A stretch of 44,124 bases of DNA, from NCBI GenBank assembly GCA_002292405.1, contig DBBW01000003.1:10760-54883 (forward strand). The letters run 5' to 3'. Shown here piece by piece: positions 3,616 to 43,478 of the stretch; position 1 is the first letter of the stretch; each line of letters starts with the position of its first letter. The notes below the pieces were generated by a model. It saw nothing but the letters and a program-made list of their open reading frames with translations. It ran no database searches and had not been told where the DNA came from. The stretch comes from Flavobacteriales bacterium UBA974. GTDB lineage: Bacteria; Bacteroidota; Bacteroidia; Flavobacteriales_D; Sanyastnellaceae. The position numbers and the translations under genes were made by a program.

Positions 3616-6075
3616 CTAATTAAACAGGTCCGAATCGTCGAATCCATCAGAATCGAAGGTATGCCCTTTTAAAGAGACTTGGTCTTTACAATTTAATGTG
3701 TCAGATCCCAAGGACTCAGGCCTAGCAAAATCTTCTTGTGAAAGACCTATGCTCTCATCTGCGTAAGTATCCTTCATAAAAAATCCATATATAGGTAGAG
3801 CAGTGTTCGCTCCTTGACCGTAATGAGTCGTTGAAAATCTAACTGTGGGGTCTTGCGCTCCTACCCAAACCCCAGTTACCAATTCCGGTGTAAGCCCCAT
3901 AAACCACCCGTCAGTATTGTTTTGTGTTGTTCCTGTTTTTCCGCCCATAGGTGCTGTGATTCCATCGTAATCTCTTGCGTCGGAATCATAACGAAGCCTA
4001 ACGCCTGTTCCCATTCGTTTTTGGAGTTCTTCATTCCAAGCCCCGTCAACAACGCCTTTCATCATACGAACTACACGGTAGGCAGTGAGTTCATCAAGGC
4101 CTTGTCTGATATCAGGGCTGGGTTCAAAAATGGTGTTTCCAAATCTATCTTCTACTCTGATTAAGATGGTGGGTTCAACGTAAACACCCCCATTTACAAG
4201 AGCCGCGTTAGCTGAAACAAGCTCTTTTAATTTAAGCTCTGCTACTCCGAGAGCGATAGAAGGAACGTTGGGAATGTCACTGTCAATTCCCAGGGCGTGT
4301 GCAAGTTTTATTACTCTATCAGTACCGAACGTTTTAATGAGTTTTGCCGTAACTGTATTCATTGAATTGGCAAGGGCGTACTCTAGTGTTACTATTTCTC
4401 CATAATCTTCTGATGAGTTTTGTGGACACCAAATCGGGGGGTCATAACCCTCTGGAAGGTCTATACAAGTCACTTGGTTTGGCAATTCGTCACAGGAATT
4501 CATCCCCATCCTAAGGGCGGTAGCGTATACAAAGGGTTTGAAGGTAGAGCCTACCTGGCGGCGGCTTTGATCTACATTATCGTATTGAAAAAACTTATAG
4601 TCAATGCCTCCAACCCACGCTTTAATTTGGCCTGAGGATGGTTCGATAGAAAGAAGGCCGGCATGAAGCGTTTTCTTGCGATGAATAATGCTGTCCATGG
4701 GAGACATCACCGTATCTAATGGGCCCGAGTGGCTGAAAACCTTCATTTTTACTGGCTTATCCATAGACGCTTTGAAATTCTTTTTACTTAACCCCATCCA
4801 TGTGTTACCGCATCCTCCATGATCGGGCATACACTTAAAGCCTTTCGAGCCGTCTACGAAAGTGTGATCTCGTATGTAAAAAGCGGGTCTATTACAACCG
4901 GGACAAAGCTTGCCTTTGCTTTTCTTATACCTGTCCGAATCACGGACTGCGATGTCTATAATTGTCTTTTTTGCTTCTTGATCTATCTCCTCAAAAAAAG
5001 GATAGTCTTGTTTTGGGCGGTTTTTTAAGTCTCTGTCAAAAACTGCTTGGAGCTCTCCGCCTAAATGTTTAGAAACGGCATTTTCAGCATACTGTTGCAT
5101 GCGACTATCAATCGTGGTATGCACCTTTAATCCGTCTCTGTATATATTGTACTTCGAGCCATCGGCCTTGCTTACAACATAAGAATCATCGGGGTTTTTT
5201 TCCGAGAAAACGCTCTTTAATTCTGCGCGTAAACGCTCTCTAAAATATGGAGCAGCGCCCTCATCGTGGCTTACTCTTTGGTAATTTAAGGTAATCGGCC
5301 GTGCTTTGATAGAATCGAGAGAAGTTGGAGAAAGCCGTTCATATTTACCCATTTGGTTTAGAACAACATTCCTGCGCTTTGTAACCAATTCCATTCTGCG
5401 AAGCGGATTAAATAGGGCGCTATTCTTCAACATCCCCACTAACATCGCGCATTCTTCCACATTTAATTCCTCTACCTCTTTGTTAAAATAAATGGTCGAA
5501 GCAGATCTTATTCCAACGGCTTGATTTAGAAAGTCGTATCTATTGAGATACATCGCAATAATCTCACCCTTCGTGTAGTGACTCTCTAACCGTGCCGCAA
5601 TGATCCACTCTTTGGGTTTTTGTAAAAGCGCTCGCTCTAAAAAGCTTGTCGATTCATACTCTTCTGTAAAAAGTAGTTTTGCCAGTTGTTGCGTTATCGT
5701 TGAACCCCCTCCTCTTTTGCCTAAAAAAGCTATCGCTCTACCCAATCCGAAAAAATCAACTCCATCATGGCTGTAAAACCTTACATCCTCTGTGGAAATT
5801 AACGCATCTATAAGGTGCTGAGGTAAATCCTCGAACCGAGCGTCTGATCTGTTCTCGTTATAATAGCTTCCTAAGACCTTCCCGTCCATGGTATAAACCT
5901 TCGTTGCAAGATCTGTACGAGGGTTCGTGAGTGCTTGCGTGTCTGGCAAATCCCCAAGTCTAGCAAGAGCTACAAGAGCTAGTATTCCTAAAAGAGGGCT
6001 TATTCCCGCTAGGAAAAATAGAGCTTTCCAATAGCCCTTTCTGGGAGTTTTTTTTATTGAGGTGTGTTGAGGCAT
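3616..6075 (-). CDS. mrcA: Class A penicillin-binding protein (PBP1A-like) with a four-cysteine insert
   Basis: Bifunctional peptidoglycan synthase, anchored in the inner membrane and active in the periplasm. From the ATG at 6075 it has 819 residues; an upstream start at 6105 would add ten residues of no evident value. In order: a membrane helix (about 17-39); a GT51 glycosyltransferase with ISTEDVRFYSHDGVD (catalytic Glu96) and GGGSTITQQLAK; and a transpeptidase with GSTFKPF (nucleophile Ser510), SMN in ANSMNTVTA, and the KTG triad in GGKTGTTQNNTDGWFMG. Between the domains lies an unusual insert with cysteines at 391, 394, 415 and 422 (CPGC...C...C), resembling a zinc ribbon or a disulfide knot. 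The gene is divergent from rseP. Confidence 0.93.
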   Translation of the reverse strand: MPQHTSIKKTPRKGYWKALFFLAGISPLLGILALVALARLGDLPDTQALTNPRTDLATKVYTMDGKVLGSYYNENRSDARFEDLPQHLIDALISTEDVRFYSHDGVDFFGLGRAIAFLGKRGGGSTITQQLAKLLFTEEYESTSFLERALLQKPKEWIIAARLESHYTKGEIIAMYLNRYDFLNQAVGIRSASTIYFNKEVEELNVEECAMLVGMLKNSALFNPLRRMELVTKRRNVVLNQMGKYERLSPTSLDSIKARPITLNYQRVSHDEGAAPYFRERLRAELKSVFSEKNPDDSYVVSKADGSKYNIYRDGLKVHTTIDSRMQQYAENAVSKHLGGELQAVFDRDLKNRPKQDYPFFEEIDQEAKKTIIDIAVRDSDRYKKSKGKLCPGCNRPAFYIRDHTFVDGSKGFKCMPDHGGCGNTWMGLSKKNFKASMDKPVKMKVFSHSGPLDTVMSPMDSIIHRKKTLHAGLLSIEPSSGQIKAWVGGIDYKFFQYDNVDQSRRQVGSTFKPFVYATALRMGMNSCDELPNQVTCIDLPEGYDPPIWCPQNSSEDYGEIVTLEYALANSMNTVTAKLIKTFGTDRVIKLAHALGIDSDIPNVPSIALGVAELKLKELVSANAALVNGGVYVEPTILIRVEDRFGNTIFEPSPDIRQGLDELTAYRVVRMMKGVVDGAWNEELQKRMGTGVRLRYDSDARDYDGITAPMGGKTGTTQNNTDGWFMGLTPELVTGVWVGAQDPTVRFSTTHYGQGANTALPIYGFFMKDTYADESIGLSQEDFARPESLGSDTLNCKDQVSLKGHTFDSDGFDDSDLFN

Positions 6076-6163
6076 GGGTATCGCTAGATACTGCAATATG
6101 CACACAACTAAATAAAATATTTAAGAATTTCACAACGTTTGTCAGCATCACATCGTGGAAAGT

Positions 6164-6171
6164 TATCTTTG
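6164..6171 (+). promoter_or_regulatory. Promoter -7 box of rseP
   Basis: TATCTTTG is a perfect match to the Bacteroidota -7 consensus TAnnTTTG, and a TTG at 6139-6141 lies 22 nt upstream, within the reported range for the -33 element. Only five bases separate the box from the rseP ATG at 6177, so the transcript is predicted to be leaderless or nearly so. This supports the ATG at 6177 over the longer upstream reading frame. Confidence 0.55.
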
Positions 6172-6176
6172 CCGCC

Positions 6177-7505
6177 ATGATTGCACTTATTAAAGGATTA
6201 CAACTCCTACTCAGCCTCTCACTTCTTGTGGTATTACACGAGTTAGGCCACTACTTAGCAGCCCGTTACTTCAAAACTAGAGTAGAGAAATTCTACCTGT
6301 TTATGAATCCTGGATTTTCTCTTTTCAAGAAACAAATTGGAGACACCGAATGGGGGATCGGTTGGCTGCCCTTAGGTGGTTACGTAAAAATAAGCGGAAT
6401 GATAGACGAGAGCATGGACAAGGAACAAATGGCTAAGCCGGCTGAACCTTGGGAGTTTCGATCTAAACCGGCATGGCAAAGGCTCATTATTATGATTGGC
6501 GGAATAATTGTAAATCTCATTGTGGGGTTTTTGATTTACAGCATGATCTTACTTGTTTGGGGTCAAACTATTTTGCCTAACAAATACGCAGTTGATATTG
6601 ATCCGCGTCTTGAGCTGTTGGGTTTTCAAAGTGGAGATCATATCATTTCTTTTAACGGAGAAGAGCTTGAAACCTTTAGAAACGTTAGAACAACTGCATT
6701 CTTTGAACCAGTAACCGAGGCGATAATTAAAAGAAATGGTGTAGAGCAGGAGCTTTCTTTTAAAACAGAATTGGGACAGGTGCTACTTGATGAGGGAATA
6801 CGCAGACCCTTTTCTCTACAAGTTCCTCCTGTAATTAAAAGTGTTAACTCTGATTCAAGGGCTGAAGAGGCTGGACTAGTAGCCGGAGATTTAATTCTTG
6901 GGGTTAATGACAATCTTGTTTTCTCACAACAGCAGACCGTAAATGCTTTTCAGGGTTACCCCAATTCTCCCGTTGTAGTCTATATAGAGCGTGATAGAGA
7001 AAAACTCTCTTTGCCTGTAATGACTGACAGTTTAGGGCATATCGGTTTTACAATGGAAAGTCCGGCTAGTTTTTCGGAGATGTTTGTTCAGGAAAAAATA
7101 GAATACGGTGCCTTAGATGCCTTGGTAAATGGGTTTTTTATGGCGGGAACTACTTTACAGGAATATGCCCTTTCTCTTCGATTTTTAGCTTCTAAATCTG
7201 GCGCATCACAAGTGGGGTCGTTAATCACATTTGGTAGCATCTTCGACGGAAGTTGGGATTGGTTAGTCTTCTGGAGAAACACCGCTTTCTTATCGTTAAT
7301 ACTTGCCTTTATGAACCTTTTGCCTATCCCCGCTTTAGATGGTGGGCATGTTGTGTTCTTACTTTATGAGATTGTCGTGGGGAAGCCCGCTCCAGATAAA
7401 ATCATGGAAATAGCGCAGGTAATCGGGATTACACTGTTACTTGGCTTAATGGTTTTTGCGTTAGGGAACGATTTTTGGCGACTCTTTACCGGTGGGTTTG
7501 GCTAA
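6177..7505 (+). CDS. rseP: Site-2 intramembrane metalloprotease (M50 family)
   Basis: Integral inner-membrane zinc protease that cuts anti-sigma factors or other membrane proteins after a first cut by another protease. From the ATG at 6177 it has 442 residues. The first helix carries HELGH at 21-25 (zinc-binding HExxH). A PDZ-like region covers about 195-300 (SRAEEAGLVAGDLILGVN), and the second zinc-ligand helix has NLLPIPALDGGHVVFLLYE, the LDG motif typical of S2P proteases. Further hydrophobic segments lie at about 100-125, 370-400 and 415-435. The reading frame is open 40 codons further upstream, but the promoter box at 6164-6171 and the family alignment favour 6177. Confidence 0.93.
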   Translation: MIALIKGLQLLLSLSLLVVLHELGHYLAARYFKTRVEKFYLFMNPGFSLFKKQIGDTEWGIGWLPLGGYVKISGMIDESMDKEQMAKPAEPWEFRSKPAWQRLIIMIGGIIVNLIVGFLIYSMILLVWGQTILPNKYAVDIDPRLELLGFQSGDHIISFNGEELETFRNVRTTAFFEPVTEAIIKRNGVEQELSFKTELGQVLLDEGIRRPFSLQVPPVIKSVNSDSRAEEAGLVAGDLILGVNDNLVFSQQQTVNAFQGYPNSPVVVYIERDREKLSLPVMTDSLGHIGFTMESPASFSEMFVQEKIEYGALDALVNGFFMAGTTLQEYALSLRFLASKSGASQVGSLITFGSIFDGSWDWLVFWRNTAFLSLILAFMNLLPIPALDGGHVVFLLYEIVVGKPAPDKIMEIAQVIGITLLLGLMVFALGNDFWRLFTGGFG

Positions 7506-33850: not shown

Positions 33851-33889
33851 AGCCCTGTTAACTTTTAGTTGGCGGGGCTATTCTTTTTT
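33851..33889. terminator. Bidirectional intrinsic terminator between tRNA-Cys and the CotH-type gene
   Basis: A 12-bp stem (33851-33862 with 33868-33879, AGCCCTGTTAAC against GTTGGCGGGGCT, with G-T pairs) encloses a five-base loop. An A-tract lies upstream (from 33837) and a T-rich tract downstream (to 33889), so it can end transcripts on both strands. The stop codon of the minus-strand gene sits in the T tract. Confidence 0.8.
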
Positions 33890-35801
33890 AAAAGACAATA
33901 AGTTTTAAGCTCTGACCTTTTAGAGATCCTTGGAAAGTGACTATATAGATGCCTTTAGGTAAATCTAAATTGTTTAATTCTAGCGTTTCGCCACCTCTAA
34001 TCGTCACGCTTTCTTCAGTATAAACTATTGATCCAGATGTTGTGGAAATCGTCACAATTCCAAACATTGATTCTTCTGATGTATTCAATAGCGAAAATTC
34101 CCCCGAGCTAGGGTTTGGATAAGCTAAAAGAGTGTTGAATGTTGCTTCAGAGCAACAATCGAAAGGGAAATCCGAAAGATCAAAAAAGTTAGATAAATTT
34201 TCTACTGCATAGCGGTGTCGTTTCTCTAAAAATTCTAACAGATGTTCATTAATGTCATTTCTCCATGCATTTTCATTCTCAGGAAAATTCCATCTGTCAG
34301 AATGTTCTGAAATACTTGAGGAGTAAAGATCTACAAGGGATGATGCTTTGTTAATTGTTGTGTTTAGGGAGAAGTTTGAATTGAGAATATCTACATATCT
34401 CGAAATAAATTCAAACACAAACCCATCGTTACGCAATAGATTTCTAAATATAAAAGTAGAAAGCGGACTATTGGGCCAAACAACTTCAGTGTCATTCAAT
34501 GTACAATGTTCAAGCATATCATACCTGTAGTTGTATAACCCTCCATCGATGTCAAAAAATATCCACCTCCATTGAGTGCTGCCATCTGACTCCCGCCAAT
34601 ATTTAACATTGTTTCCTGGCCAATCATAATTAGATAAGAAAATTTCTGCGATATTATAGTCTATATAGTTCTCAATATCTATTTGCGATAGCAGATAATT
34701 ATAGTTCTCCTCAAAAGCAATGTCGTTCTCATTGATAAATTCTAACAGCTCTATGAATCCCTCTGCATCTCCCTCTATCGCTTCTGGGTTGCTAAATGAA
34801 TTAAGTAGGGTGACGGAGTCTGGGTGCGCTGCGCCTTCTTTATACTCGAGATAGTATTTATCTATGCGGTCGCGTATGATTTGGACTCCCCAGTATTCAC
34901 CATTAAGAAAAACGATCACCGGCCTAGAGTCTTGCGTTGCGAAGTTCAGGGATCTACAAATTTCATGCGCGAGAGGGTCTTTTATTATTGTTTTACTCCA
35001 ATCTCCCATAGAGGATTGGAGAAGAAACCGCTTGTATTCATTATTCTCATTGTTTGGAAGGAGTTTGTAGTGGAATTGGCTGTATCCGTATTCACTTCTG
35101 GCATAAAACTTTAAAGATTTCTGAGAGGCCGTGCGGGTTGCTCCCCCGTGTATTCTTACTCCAGCATCTTGAGAAAACCCTAGATCTCCCGCTTCGTTAT
35201 AGTACTCTATGTGCACATTTCTTTCCCATGCATCTCCACGTTTGTAATAGTTTCCTGTCGACTCTGTATTCTCGTCGTCAAAGCTTAAGCCGGGTATATA
35301 TATCCCTGAGTCTTGGCTGAAAAAATCGGCTTCATCAACCATCATTGATATCACTGGTAGTTCATATTTCTGAGATCCCTCCGAAAAAATAAAATAAGTT
35401 CCACTCTTGATTGTACTACTTATCTCACCATTTTTATAAGAACAAAACCTTAATATATTCCCTTTAGAAAGCAACCCTTCTGTTGATTCCCATATTGGGT
35501 AGCCATAAACAGAAATATATGGCGTTGACACAAACTCCGAGTAATAGTTAGGTTCGTGAGATTTATCCTGAAATACTATTGTATCACCTGGCATGAATAA
35601 GAAAGACTCTTTAGTGGGAACGCTTCCGTCCAGGCTGTAATATATCGTGTCCTCTGAATTTGTTTCTAGGGTAAGTGAAATATTCGATGTGTAGAAACCG
35701 GGGGGGTGGGAGGGTGATATTTGTGGGGTTTGGGCTAAATAAAAAATCGGGGATAAGCTTAGCACAGAAAAAACAAATCTGTGAGCCAATCGGAAATGCA
35801 T
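33888..35801 (-). CDS. T9SS-exported CotH-like kinase protein with chitobiase-type domain
   Basis: 637 residues. Signal peptide (about 1-23, ending YLAQ), a chitobiase/beta-hexosaminidase-type C-terminal domain near the N terminus (about 28-110; TIYYSLDGSVPTKESFLF), a CotH kinase-like region (about 190-480) with KSLKFYARSEYG, LLQSSMGDWSKTIIKDPLAH, FLNGEYWGVQIIRDRIDKYY and WRWIFFDIDGGL (the conserved D-x-D-like site), and a type A T9SS sorting domain at about 565-637 (AYPNPSSGEFSLLNTSEE, LPKGIYIVTFQ). CotH in Bacillus phosphorylates spore-coat proteins; what this protein modifies is unknown. Last gene of a four-gene minus-strand run; 14 nt after the response regulator. Confidence 0.88.
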   Translation of the reverse strand: MHFRLAHRFVFSVLSLSPIFYLAQTPQISPSHPPGFYTSNISLTLETNSEDTIYYSLDGSVPTKESFLFMPGDTIVFQDKSHEPNYYSEFVSTPYISVYGYPIWESTEGLLSKGNILRFCSYKNGEISSTIKSGTYFIFSEGSQKYELPVISMMVDEADFFSQDSGIYIPGLSFDDENTESTGNYYKRGDAWERNVHIEYYNEAGDLGFSQDAGVRIHGGATRTASQKSLKFYARSEYGYSQFHYKLLPNNENNEYKRFLLQSSMGDWSKTIIKDPLAHEICRSLNFATQDSRPVIVFLNGEYWGVQIIRDRIDKYYLEYKEGAAHPDSVTLLNSFSNPEAIEGDAEGFIELLEFINENDIAFEENYNYLLSQIDIENYIDYNIAEIFLSNYDWPGNNVKYWRESDGSTQWRWIFFDIDGGLYNYRYDMLEHCTLNDTEVVWPNSPLSTFIFRNLLRNDGFVFEFISRYVDILNSNFSLNTTINKASSLVDLYSSSISEHSDRWNFPENENAWRNDINEHLLEFLEKRHRYAVENLSNFFDLSDFPFDCCSEATFNTLLAYPNPSSGEFSLLNTSEESMFGIVTISTTSGSIVYTEESVTIRGGETLELNNLDLPKGIYIVTFQGSLKGQSLKLIVF

Positions 35802-41477: not shown

Positions 41478-43478
41478 ATGAATTTTAGTATTGGATGTGA
41501 TCACGCAGGACCGGCATATAAAAACACAATAATAGAATACCTCAAAGAACGTGGTTTTTCAGTAAAAAATTGCGGAACGGATAGCACAGAGAGTGTTGAT
41601 TATCCAGATTTTGCTCATGACGTTGCTCATGACGTGTCTTTAAAAGATTCAGAACTTGGAATTTTAATATGCGGATCAGCCAACGGGGTTGCTATGACAG
41701 CTAATAAACACAGCGAAGTTAGAGCAGCCATAGCTTGGACCCCAGAAATTGCGCACCTAGCAAAAACCCACAATGACGCAAACGTAATTTGTATTCCCGC
41801 AAGATTTGTAAGCGAACAAGATGCGATAGATATCATAGAGGCTTTTCTCAACGCCAAATTCGAAGGGGGGCGCCACGCAACACGAGTTAGAAAAATTGCA
41901 TGCGGAGTTTTAATTCTATTACTGTGCGTGTCATCGGTATTTTCCACCCTATCCCAAACCAACCCAACAGACACCCCAACCTCTATTAGTCAATCAGGAT
42001 ACGGTCAAATGATGGACTCTACAAAACTAAGATCCCACCTAAGTATAATTGCATCTGATGAGTTTGAAGGAAGAGAAACAGGAACAAGGGGCGCTGAGCT
42101 AACGGCGCTTTATTTAGAAAACTACTATTCTAAACTTGGTTTTGAACCCTACGACGGAAAATCATACACCCAAGATGTGCCGATGCTTAATTCTCAAATT
42201 CAAGGAGGGGTTATGAATATTGCAGGGCAGGAATTAAAGATGGTTGATGGTTTTTTGGTTTATCCAGGAATCAATAAAAAATCAATGAAAGATGTTCCGA
42301 TGGTTTTTGCTGGTTACGGAGCTTTAAGCGTTAATGAGTATGATGATTATGCTAAGATTGATGTAAAAGGCAAGTGTGTTGTGGTTTTACAGGGAGATGT
42401 TAGAAACCCAGACTCAGAAAGTGCAAACAACACCACTTCAAAAAGAGAGAGGGCAGAGTCTCTCGGAGCTGCAGCTTTTATTGTTGTAATGCCCAACTCA
42501 GACTACAGCACGTTTAAAGGAAGAATGAAGTTTTATATGACACGTAAATCAACAATTTTAAATAGAACCAAGGAAGGTGAGGGCGCGAGCATACCCACTT
42601 TTTTTGTCAGAGAAGAAGCCGCGGATGTTTGGTTTGACACATCGGAAAACATTAAAAACATTGCGAAAATTAAAAAGAAAGGCGAGAAAAAAGGGGTGGT
42701 GACAACGGGTGATTTTGGCTTCGCCCTCAACTATAATTTAGAGATCAACAGAACAGAGTTTAATGGAAAAAACATCCTTGCATACCTACCCGGCACCGAG
42801 AAGGATTTAAAGGAAGAGGTTGTTGTTATAACATCTCATTACGACCATATTGGAATTGTTGACGGGGAGGTTAACAACGGCGCAGATGATGACGGGTCTG
42901 GCACCGTAACCGTAATGGAGCTAGCTAGGATTTTTATGAAGGCATATAAAAACGGCGACGGACCGAGAAGGAGCGTTTTATTTATGAATGTTGTGGGTGA
43001 AGAAAAAGGATTACTTGGGTCGGAGTGGTATTCCGATCACCCCGTTTTCCCACTAGAAAATACGGTTGCAAATTTAAACATTGATATGATAGGCAGGGTT
43101 GATGAGGCTCACTCAGATGATGAAAACTACATCTATTTAATTGGATCAGATAAGCTTAGCTCAGAGCTCCATGAGATTTCAGAATCAGCGAATTCATCTT
43201 TTACTAAAATCAACCTTGATTATACTTTCAACGCTCCAGATGATCCCAATAGATTTTACTATCGTTCAGATCACTACAACTTTGCAAAGCACAATATTCC
43301 TGTGATTTTTTACTTCAGCGGTGTTCACGAAGACTACCACGCTCCAGGAGATGATGTTGAGAAGATAATGTTCACTAAGATGACAAACGTAGGGCGTTTA
43401 GCGTTCCACACAGCTTGGGAATTGCTTAACAGGGATGAAAAAATTGTTGTAGACAGAGTGAACGGTTTTAAAGACTAA
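41478..43478 (+). CDS. rpiB: Fusion of ribose-5-phosphate isomerase B with a secreted M28 peptidase
   Basis: 666 residues in one open frame. Residues 1-140 are a complete RpiB: GCDHAG at 6-11, catalytic-type Cys65 in ICGSANGVAMTANKH, THNDANVICIPARF, and the family end FEGGRHATRVRKI. Residues 141-160 (ACGVLILLLCVSSVFSTLSQ) look like a signal peptide, using RpiB's own basic tail as n-region. Residues from about 175 form a M28 peptidase with an inserted PA domain (VFAGYGALSVNEYDDYAKI); zinc ligands His454, Asp470, Glu508/Glu509, the aspartate in NIDMIGR and the histidine in EDYHAPGDD are all present. No in-frame ATG, GTG or TTG precedes the signal peptide closely, so the fusion is not an obvious misannotation. 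RpiB acts in the cytoplasm, the peptidase outside. Start at 41478 rather than TTG 41439. Sequencing or assembly error remains possible. Confidence 0.85.
   Translation: MNFSIGCDHAGPAYKNTIIEYLKERGFSVKNCGTDSTESVDYPDFAHDVAHDVSLKDSELGILICGSANGVAMTANKHSEVRAAIAWTPEIAHLAKTHNDANVICIPARFVSEQDAIDIIEAFLNAKFEGGRHATRVRKIACGVLILLLCVSSVFSTLSQTNPTDTPTSISQSGYGQMMDSTKLRSHLSIIASDEFEGRETGTRGAELTALYLENYYSKLGFEPYDGKSYTQDVPMLNSQIQGGVMNIAGQELKMVDGFLVYPGINKKSMKDVPMVFAGYGALSVNEYDDYAKIDVKGKCVVVLQGDVRNPDSESANNTTSKRERAESLGAAAFIVVMPNSDYSTFKGRMKFYMTRKSTILNRTKEGEGASIPTFFVREEAADVWFDTSENIKNIAKIKKKGEKKGVVTTGDFGFALNYNLEINRTEFNGKNILAYLPGTEKDLKEEVVVITSHYDHIGIVDGEVNNGADDDGSGTVTVMELARIFMKAYKNGDGPRRSVLFMNVVGEEKGLLGSEWYSDHPVFPLENTVANLNIDMIGRVDEAHSDDENYIYLIGSDKLSSELHEISESANSSFTKINLDYTFNAPDDPNRFYYRSDHYNFAKHNIPVIFYFSGVHEDYHAPGDDVEKIMFTKMTNVGRLAFHTAWELLNRDEKIVVDRVNGFKD

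Follow-up and report, generated by a model that had tools for sequence, protein, structure and literature searches.

A single reading frame joining RpiB to an M28 peptidase in Flavobacteriales: a probable two-compartment precursor with an internal signal peptide

The Bradyrhizobium FbcH precursor of cytochrome b/c1 consists of two proteins encoded in one frame; the signal peptide of the second one forms the join, and signal peptidase separates the two. Both products belong to a single membrane complex. PA/M28 aminopeptidases such as those of structures 2ek8, 8acr, 6zep and 6hc6 carry a signal peptide at their N terminus. Gene fusions normally unite proteins of one compartment. Studies on RsiV and RsiP describe a cut by type I signal peptidase beside the transmembrane segment, followed by the action of RasP (PMC6066255, PMC8844934). 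A study on Escherichia coli RseP reports that this protease clears away what is left of signal peptides and also cleaves small membrane proteins bearing an N-terminal MBP tag (PMC10470546).

The locus described here, by contrast to such one-compartment fusions, appears to combine a cytoplasmic enzyme with an exported one. It lies in the window, i.e. the whole stretch of 44,124 nucleotides that was analysed, and consists of one uninterrupted open reading frame from the ATG at 41478 to the stop codon at 43478 (666 amino acids, zero internal stops). An earlier note on this DNA had proposed that one frame joins RpiB, a signal peptide and an M28 peptidase, and both the frame and its domains confirm this. 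The following features were assigned:

41478..43478, + strand: rpiB-M28 fusion gene, 666 amino acids plus stop codon (open reading frame, Pfam domains, fused homologues)
41478..41897, + strand: RpiB domain, residues 1-140, with D8, H9, C65, H98, R132, H133 and R136
41871..41897, + strand: C-terminal basic tail of RpiB, RHATRVRKI (132-140), probably doubling as signal-peptide n-region
41898..41954, + strand: putative h- and c-region of the internal signal peptide, residues 141-159
41952..41957, + strand: candidate signal peptidase I site S159/Q160, proposed by comparison
41955..43475, + strand: predicted mature exported peptidase, residues 160-666, about 56.8 kDa
42327..42626, + strand: PA domain, residues 284-383 (Pfam)
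42771..43409, + strand: Peptidase_M28 catalytic domain, residues 432-644 (Pfam)

With RsiV and RsiP the predicted product would share the succession of a cytoplasmic part, a transmembrane segment and an extracytoplasmic part, as well as a signal peptidase cut on the outer side and subsequent processing by a site-2 protease. RsiV and RsiP are regulators that are degraded after a signal-dependent cut, whereas each half of RpiB-M28 has the appearance of an intact enzyme and a cut, should it occur, would seem to be constitutive. FbcH differs in another respect: RpiB-M28 links a soluble enzyme of the cytoplasm with an exported peptidase to which it is not related. A further comparison is with separate rpiB and M28 genes found within the same taxonomic order, which encode the same two enzymes in the same succession; there, M28 starts independently and supplies a basic n-region itself, and RpiB ends free. 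The component enzymes are ordinary, and the principle of an internally cut precursor has precedents in RsiV/RsiP and in FbcH. A literature search for an RpiB-M28 fusion, with most subscription journals outside its coverage, retrieved no report, and the literature searched on bacterial polyproteins and internal signals cut by signal peptidase contained nothing on such a fusion.

LacAB_rpiB (PF02502) matched residues 5-140 up to the last profile position (3-138 of 138; E 7.8e-53; 178.6 bits versus a cut-off of 24.7), which bears out the previous claim that RpiB ends exactly where its family ends. The RpiB part also passed PRK05571 (169.8, threshold 135) and scored 137.1 against the equivalog TIGR01120, slightly below its cut-off of 138.65. 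D8, H9, C65, H98, R132, H133 and R136 are residues that we take to form the RpiB active site. In the second half, Pfam located a PA domain at residues 284-383 and Peptidase_M28 at 432-644 (E 1e-36; 127 bits versus a cut-off of 21.3). H454, D470, E508, E509, D536 and H621 are all in place; presumably they represent the zinc ligands (H, D, E, D, H) plus the catalytic glutamate of M28 enzymes, and the claimed complete set of ligands in a PA/M28 peptidase was therefore upheld. Between the domains, residues 141-159 (ACGVLILLLCVSSVFSTLS) are uncharged and are followed by Q160. The hydrophobic stretch had been placed at 141-157; the stretch is real, but the uncharged run extends to 159. Calculated masses are 73.9 kDa for the whole chain, 17.2 kDa for RpiB plus tail and 56.8 kDa for M28.

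Solved sequence relatives agree with this division. Over residues 1-140, the first half aligns best with solved RpiB enzymes, and the second half has leucine aminopeptidase A and YwaD as its closest solved relatives; no listed solved chain had its best-matching stretch across both halves. Structures 2ek8, PaAP (8acr), leucine aminopeptidase A (6zep) and YwaD (6hc6) have the fold and the zinc-binding and catalytic residues of the exported half. In Foldseek the M28 aminopeptidases 2ek8 and PaAP ranked at the top, with whole-chain TM-scores (0.40-0.41) that are low, as is to be expected when the query has several domains. The AlphaFold2 monomer model, computed with 41 fused sequences (mean pLDDT 83.7, pTM 0.65), predicts one helix at 132-154 in which the RpiB tail is continued by the signal peptide. 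Confidence in this joint helix is only moderate, with a mean pLDDT of 62 at 131-140 and of 77 at 141-150, and pLDDT falls below 50 at 155-169, round the cleavage-like site.

As the window derives from a single draft MAG (28 contigs, 62% complete), an assembly error or a recently lost stop codon had been named as alternatives. Related genomes were searched for the same junction. Matches were obtained in 57 of 60 genomes (own included); in the own genome the fusion gene was the sole match. Among the best 30 loci from these 60 genomes 15 were fused, and they came from the own genus and four other genera; in the 14 besides the window's, RpiB was 62-92% identical. This single-frame arrangement occurs in nine of the 14 searched members of the genus (own included) and in further genera. 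At family level, 106 of 114 genomes matched at E<=1e-30. Of 122 loci fetched, eight were dropped as single-domain (three M28 only, five RpiB only), and the remaining 114 two-domain loci comprised 44 fused, 67 split and three in which a stop codon interrupts the shared frame. Twelve of the 67 split ones come from outside the family, which itself (102 loci) accounts for 44 fused, 55 split and three stop-divided ones. The fused loci come from 43 genomes of six genera (g5, 19; g1, 10; g3, 10; g10, 2; g11, 2; g14, 1). With 43 further fused loci in other assemblies, an artefact or recent mutation confined to this MAG is effectively excluded and its probability negligible. The arrangement that the earlier note had named as refuting, a stop codon followed by a separate start, was encountered only in relatives that are more distant and ancestrally split and in split g11 loci, and not in the own genus.

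When residues 1-175 were used as query, 336 proteins fell within the length limits, and 117 of the 120 matches listed contained both RpiB and M28; the other three of those listed (P0040, P0055 and P0061; 403-429 aa) contained RpiB only. A hydrophobic stretch following the GGRH tail was recognized by eye in 121 of 121 proteins, P0001 included. The few names given to such proteins by their sources cite one half only and should be taken with caution. In the order outside the family, no single frame over both domains was detected in 16 matching genomes (399 searched, 118 matched at E<=1e-120), in a search that scored at most three candidates per genome at this threshold and that weaker fusions could escape. 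Adjacency of rpiB and M28 is not universal: no M28 was present in the stretch at five loci of the order fetched round RpiB, nor in the stretch of 13 more distant RpiB records.

Some loci deviate from the two main types. In L015, L059 and L061 rpiB and M28 share a frame with a stop codon between them, and in G150, G180, G193 and G206, all outside the family, the match covers both domains with one to three internal stops. Such in-frame but stop-bearing pairs are a possible stepping stone to fusion. Genome G002, a MAG of the own genus, has two fused loci, one of which (L047, G002:C23) groups with G017 of another genus; L047 may be a binning stray or the result of transfer.

To characterize the junction, the fused sequences of 44 loci and 121 proteins, 165 in total, were reduced to 55 representatives with RpiB identities below 85%, X-bearing rows being excluded, and compared with the M28 genes of 70 split or divided loci, whose starts were assigned by a simple rule. 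All 70 separate M28 proteins have their own lysine or arginine before the hydrophobic core, versus none of the 55 fusions, in all of which the GGRH..KI segment carries three to four such residues. Since the fusions lack an n-region of their own, the RpiB tail would serve instead. That the basic tail of RpiB acts as the n-region, as the earlier note had suggested, is strongly supported by this sequence comparison. Core hydrophobicity is similar in both groups (2.70 split, 2.55 fused). In 53 of 55 fusions the first glutamine follows KI at a distance of 15-19 residues, and in 52 the segment between KI and position -3 is free of charged residues. An [AGSC]Q pair 13-21 residues past KI is present in 52 of 55 fusions versus 104 of 1100 control windows (9%) taken farther downstream in the same proteins. 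At the first glutamine, 39 of the 55 fused sequences satisfy the strict -3/-1/+1 rule, as do 52 of the 70 split ones, so that the fused sites are about equal to those of their separate relatives. In the window, the cleavage-like SQ site is indeed present as S159/Q160; with T at -3 and S at -1 (T-L-S/Q), it is weaker than the A/Q-type site common in the relatives.

Overall, the segment has the basic n-region (from RpiB), the uncharged hydrophobic core and the small -1 residue of a Sec signal peptide, but not its N-terminal placement: it is internal, after 140 residues, and therefore would act in the manner of a signal peptide but from a signal-anchor position. Two other types of signal were considered. 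A Tat signal was dismissed because the twin arginine is not conserved (in 11 of 55 fusions, the window's with T among them, R136 is preceded by a residue other than R), and a lipoprotein signal because a simple lipobox motif occurred in 0 of 55. A search for signal peptidase I was positive in 17 of 20 genomes, though not in the own MAG, which is 62% complete.

These data bear on the question, raised previously, of whether the product is a two-sided inner-membrane protein or a precursor that is split. In the former case residues 141-159 would be a permanent signal anchor, with RpiB in the cytoplasm and M28 in the periplasm. Such a topology (N-in/C-out) suits the basic tail plus hydrophobic segment, the window's own site is weak, and 16 of the 55 fused representatives fail the strict site rule. 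Against a lasting anchor speak the short distance of just 15-19 residues from KI to Q in 53 of 55 and the [AGSC]/Q pair kept in 52 of 55, much like in separate secreted M28 proteins; if the segment were an anchor, it is not evident why the site should be retained across representatives whose RpiB parts are less than 85% identical. The conserved cleavage-like site thus favours the split precursor, and an uncleaved enzyme is considered unlikely.

Another way to obtain free peptidase would be internal initiation, ribosomes starting also at the junction and making M28 alone as in the ancestral gene pair. Between GGRH and KI+3, 32 of the 44 fused genes have an ATG, GTG or TTG codon in frame (12 with ATG, mostly at +3, and 20 with GTG or TTG only); ATG at +3 falls about at the ancestral M28 start, and 19 of the 44 have GTG at -4. 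The remaining 12, the window included, have none of the three codons there, and the nearest candidate in the window is a GTG within the hydrophobic core. Moreover, a product begun at +2 or +3 would be devoid of a basic n-region, K or R between KI and the core being found in 0 of 55, and the junction start codons are not conserved whereas the RpiB-fed signal peptide is. Internal initiation was rejected as the main route on account of the 12 genes that lack a canonical start, and even as an additional one, conceivable in the 32 genes with such a codon, it appears quite improbable. The cleaved precursor is the preferred reading.

Phylogenetic analysis was used to trace the origin of the fusion. 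In 50 of 67 split loci an M28 ATG overlaps the rpiB stop codon, the position being exactly -4 in 34 of them. A tree of both domains without the junction, obtained by a quick search with long-branch warnings (fused L016 included), placed all 44 fused rows within a 58-row clade (support 100) nested among split rows. On it the fused state requires two changes, one in a 42-row group (support 93) and one in a two-row g11 group (support 100); the two fused g11 rows stand beside 14 split g11 rows. A single fused clade was rejected (p-AU 0.00027) in a test on a chosen subset of 68 of 114 rows (44 fused, 24 split). On the evidence of this tree the split state is ancestral, and the fusion arose twice, or once with re-splitting in g11, given the rejection of the single clade. 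The ATG lies at -4 in each of the 14 split g11 genes, as it does in many outgroups, so that two independent fusions are favoured and probably occurred. The fusion appears to have developed from a conserved, mostly overlapping rpiB-M28 gene pair. A methionine at the third place after KI, present in 12 of 55 non-redundant fusions and absent in the window, would be a relict of the M28 start displaced by a small frame change.

Both enzymes seem to be kept in the fusions. Across all 44 fused rows, the RpiB positions tested do not vary except for position 100 (N in 32, D in 12), where both residues are also seen in split genes, and the tested M28 positions are invariant in the 44 rows, one of which has no letters at H621. 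In 16 close pairs, some of them sharing rows, dN/dS ranged from 0.00 to 0.11 for RpiB and from 0.03 to 0.085 for M28; values for the signal segment of 15-19 codons (0 to 1.97, one undefined) were too noisy for use. RpiA was detected in 0 of 60 genomes (own included), the control search having matched in eight of 14 named genomes. RpiB was found in 50 of 60 genomes, with a single match in 47 of these 50. In the own genome the one RpiB is the fused copy, and the same applies to the fused genomes, although G011 has a distant second match too. The idea that RpiA or another RpiB covers the cytoplasmic role was discarded, as none was found apart from additional RpiB matches in three genomes: another fused copy in G002, the distant one in G011 and, in G023, pieces that lie on two contigs. 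Because no RpiA was found and RpiB is single in 47 of 50, the fused RpiB should be required in the cytoplasm, if the non-oxidative pentose phosphate pathway runs as elsewhere.

Five members of the same genus (G001, G004, G007, G009 and G010; completeness 63-84%) gave no RpiB match and no strong match to this M28, the M28 match in G001 and G007 being only about 1e-4. The absence of both RpiB and RpiA in these genomes may be due to gaps in the sequence, or ribose-5-phosphate isomerase may truly have been lost.

Taken as a whole, the gene probably encodes a two-compartment precursor, with RpiB remaining inside, M28 exported via Sec and signal peptidase I cutting between them. RpiB would be translated first, fold and stay in the cytoplasm as the sole detected ribose-5-phosphate isomerase, while its basic tail R132-K139 would also provide the n-region of the internal Sec signal peptide 141-159. 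The downstream chain would then cross by way of the Sec channel, giving an N-in/C-out topology; cleavage by signal peptidase I would follow at S159/Q160, and the freed PA/M28 aminopeptidase would reach the periplasm or beyond. RpiB would retain a hydrophobic tail of 19 residues and hence be bound to the inner membrane at first; a site-2 protease of the RseP type may trim it free later. The window encodes an RseP-like M50 protease with PDZ domains (6057-7505, +), a candidate trimmer of the RpiB tail, which makes such a step possible.

A more far-reaching version, in which the gene specifies a natural bacterial polyprotein for two compartments, is given about an even chance. It holds that the tail of the cell's only isomerase was co-opted as n-region, that each copy launches one peptidase and stays tethered for a while, that M28 export needs RpiB, that the arrangement evolved probably twice, and that a pentose-phosphate step is placed at the membrane. 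Candidate reasons for retention are (i) a fixed 1:1 output; (ii) membrane placement of RpiB; (iii) plain irreversibility once M28 had lost its own start and n-region, i.e. a ratchet and not an adaptation, which is the simplest of the three. In any case the fusion has been retained in six genera with signal peptide and cut site maintained in between; it would exemplify a route from an overlapping gene pair to a signal peptidase precursor, and offers a natural, testable case of a large folded domain ahead of a cleavable Sec signal. Elsewhere in the window (33888-35801, -) a CotH-kinase-like protein with a Por_Secre_tail domain (type IX secretion sorting) is encoded.
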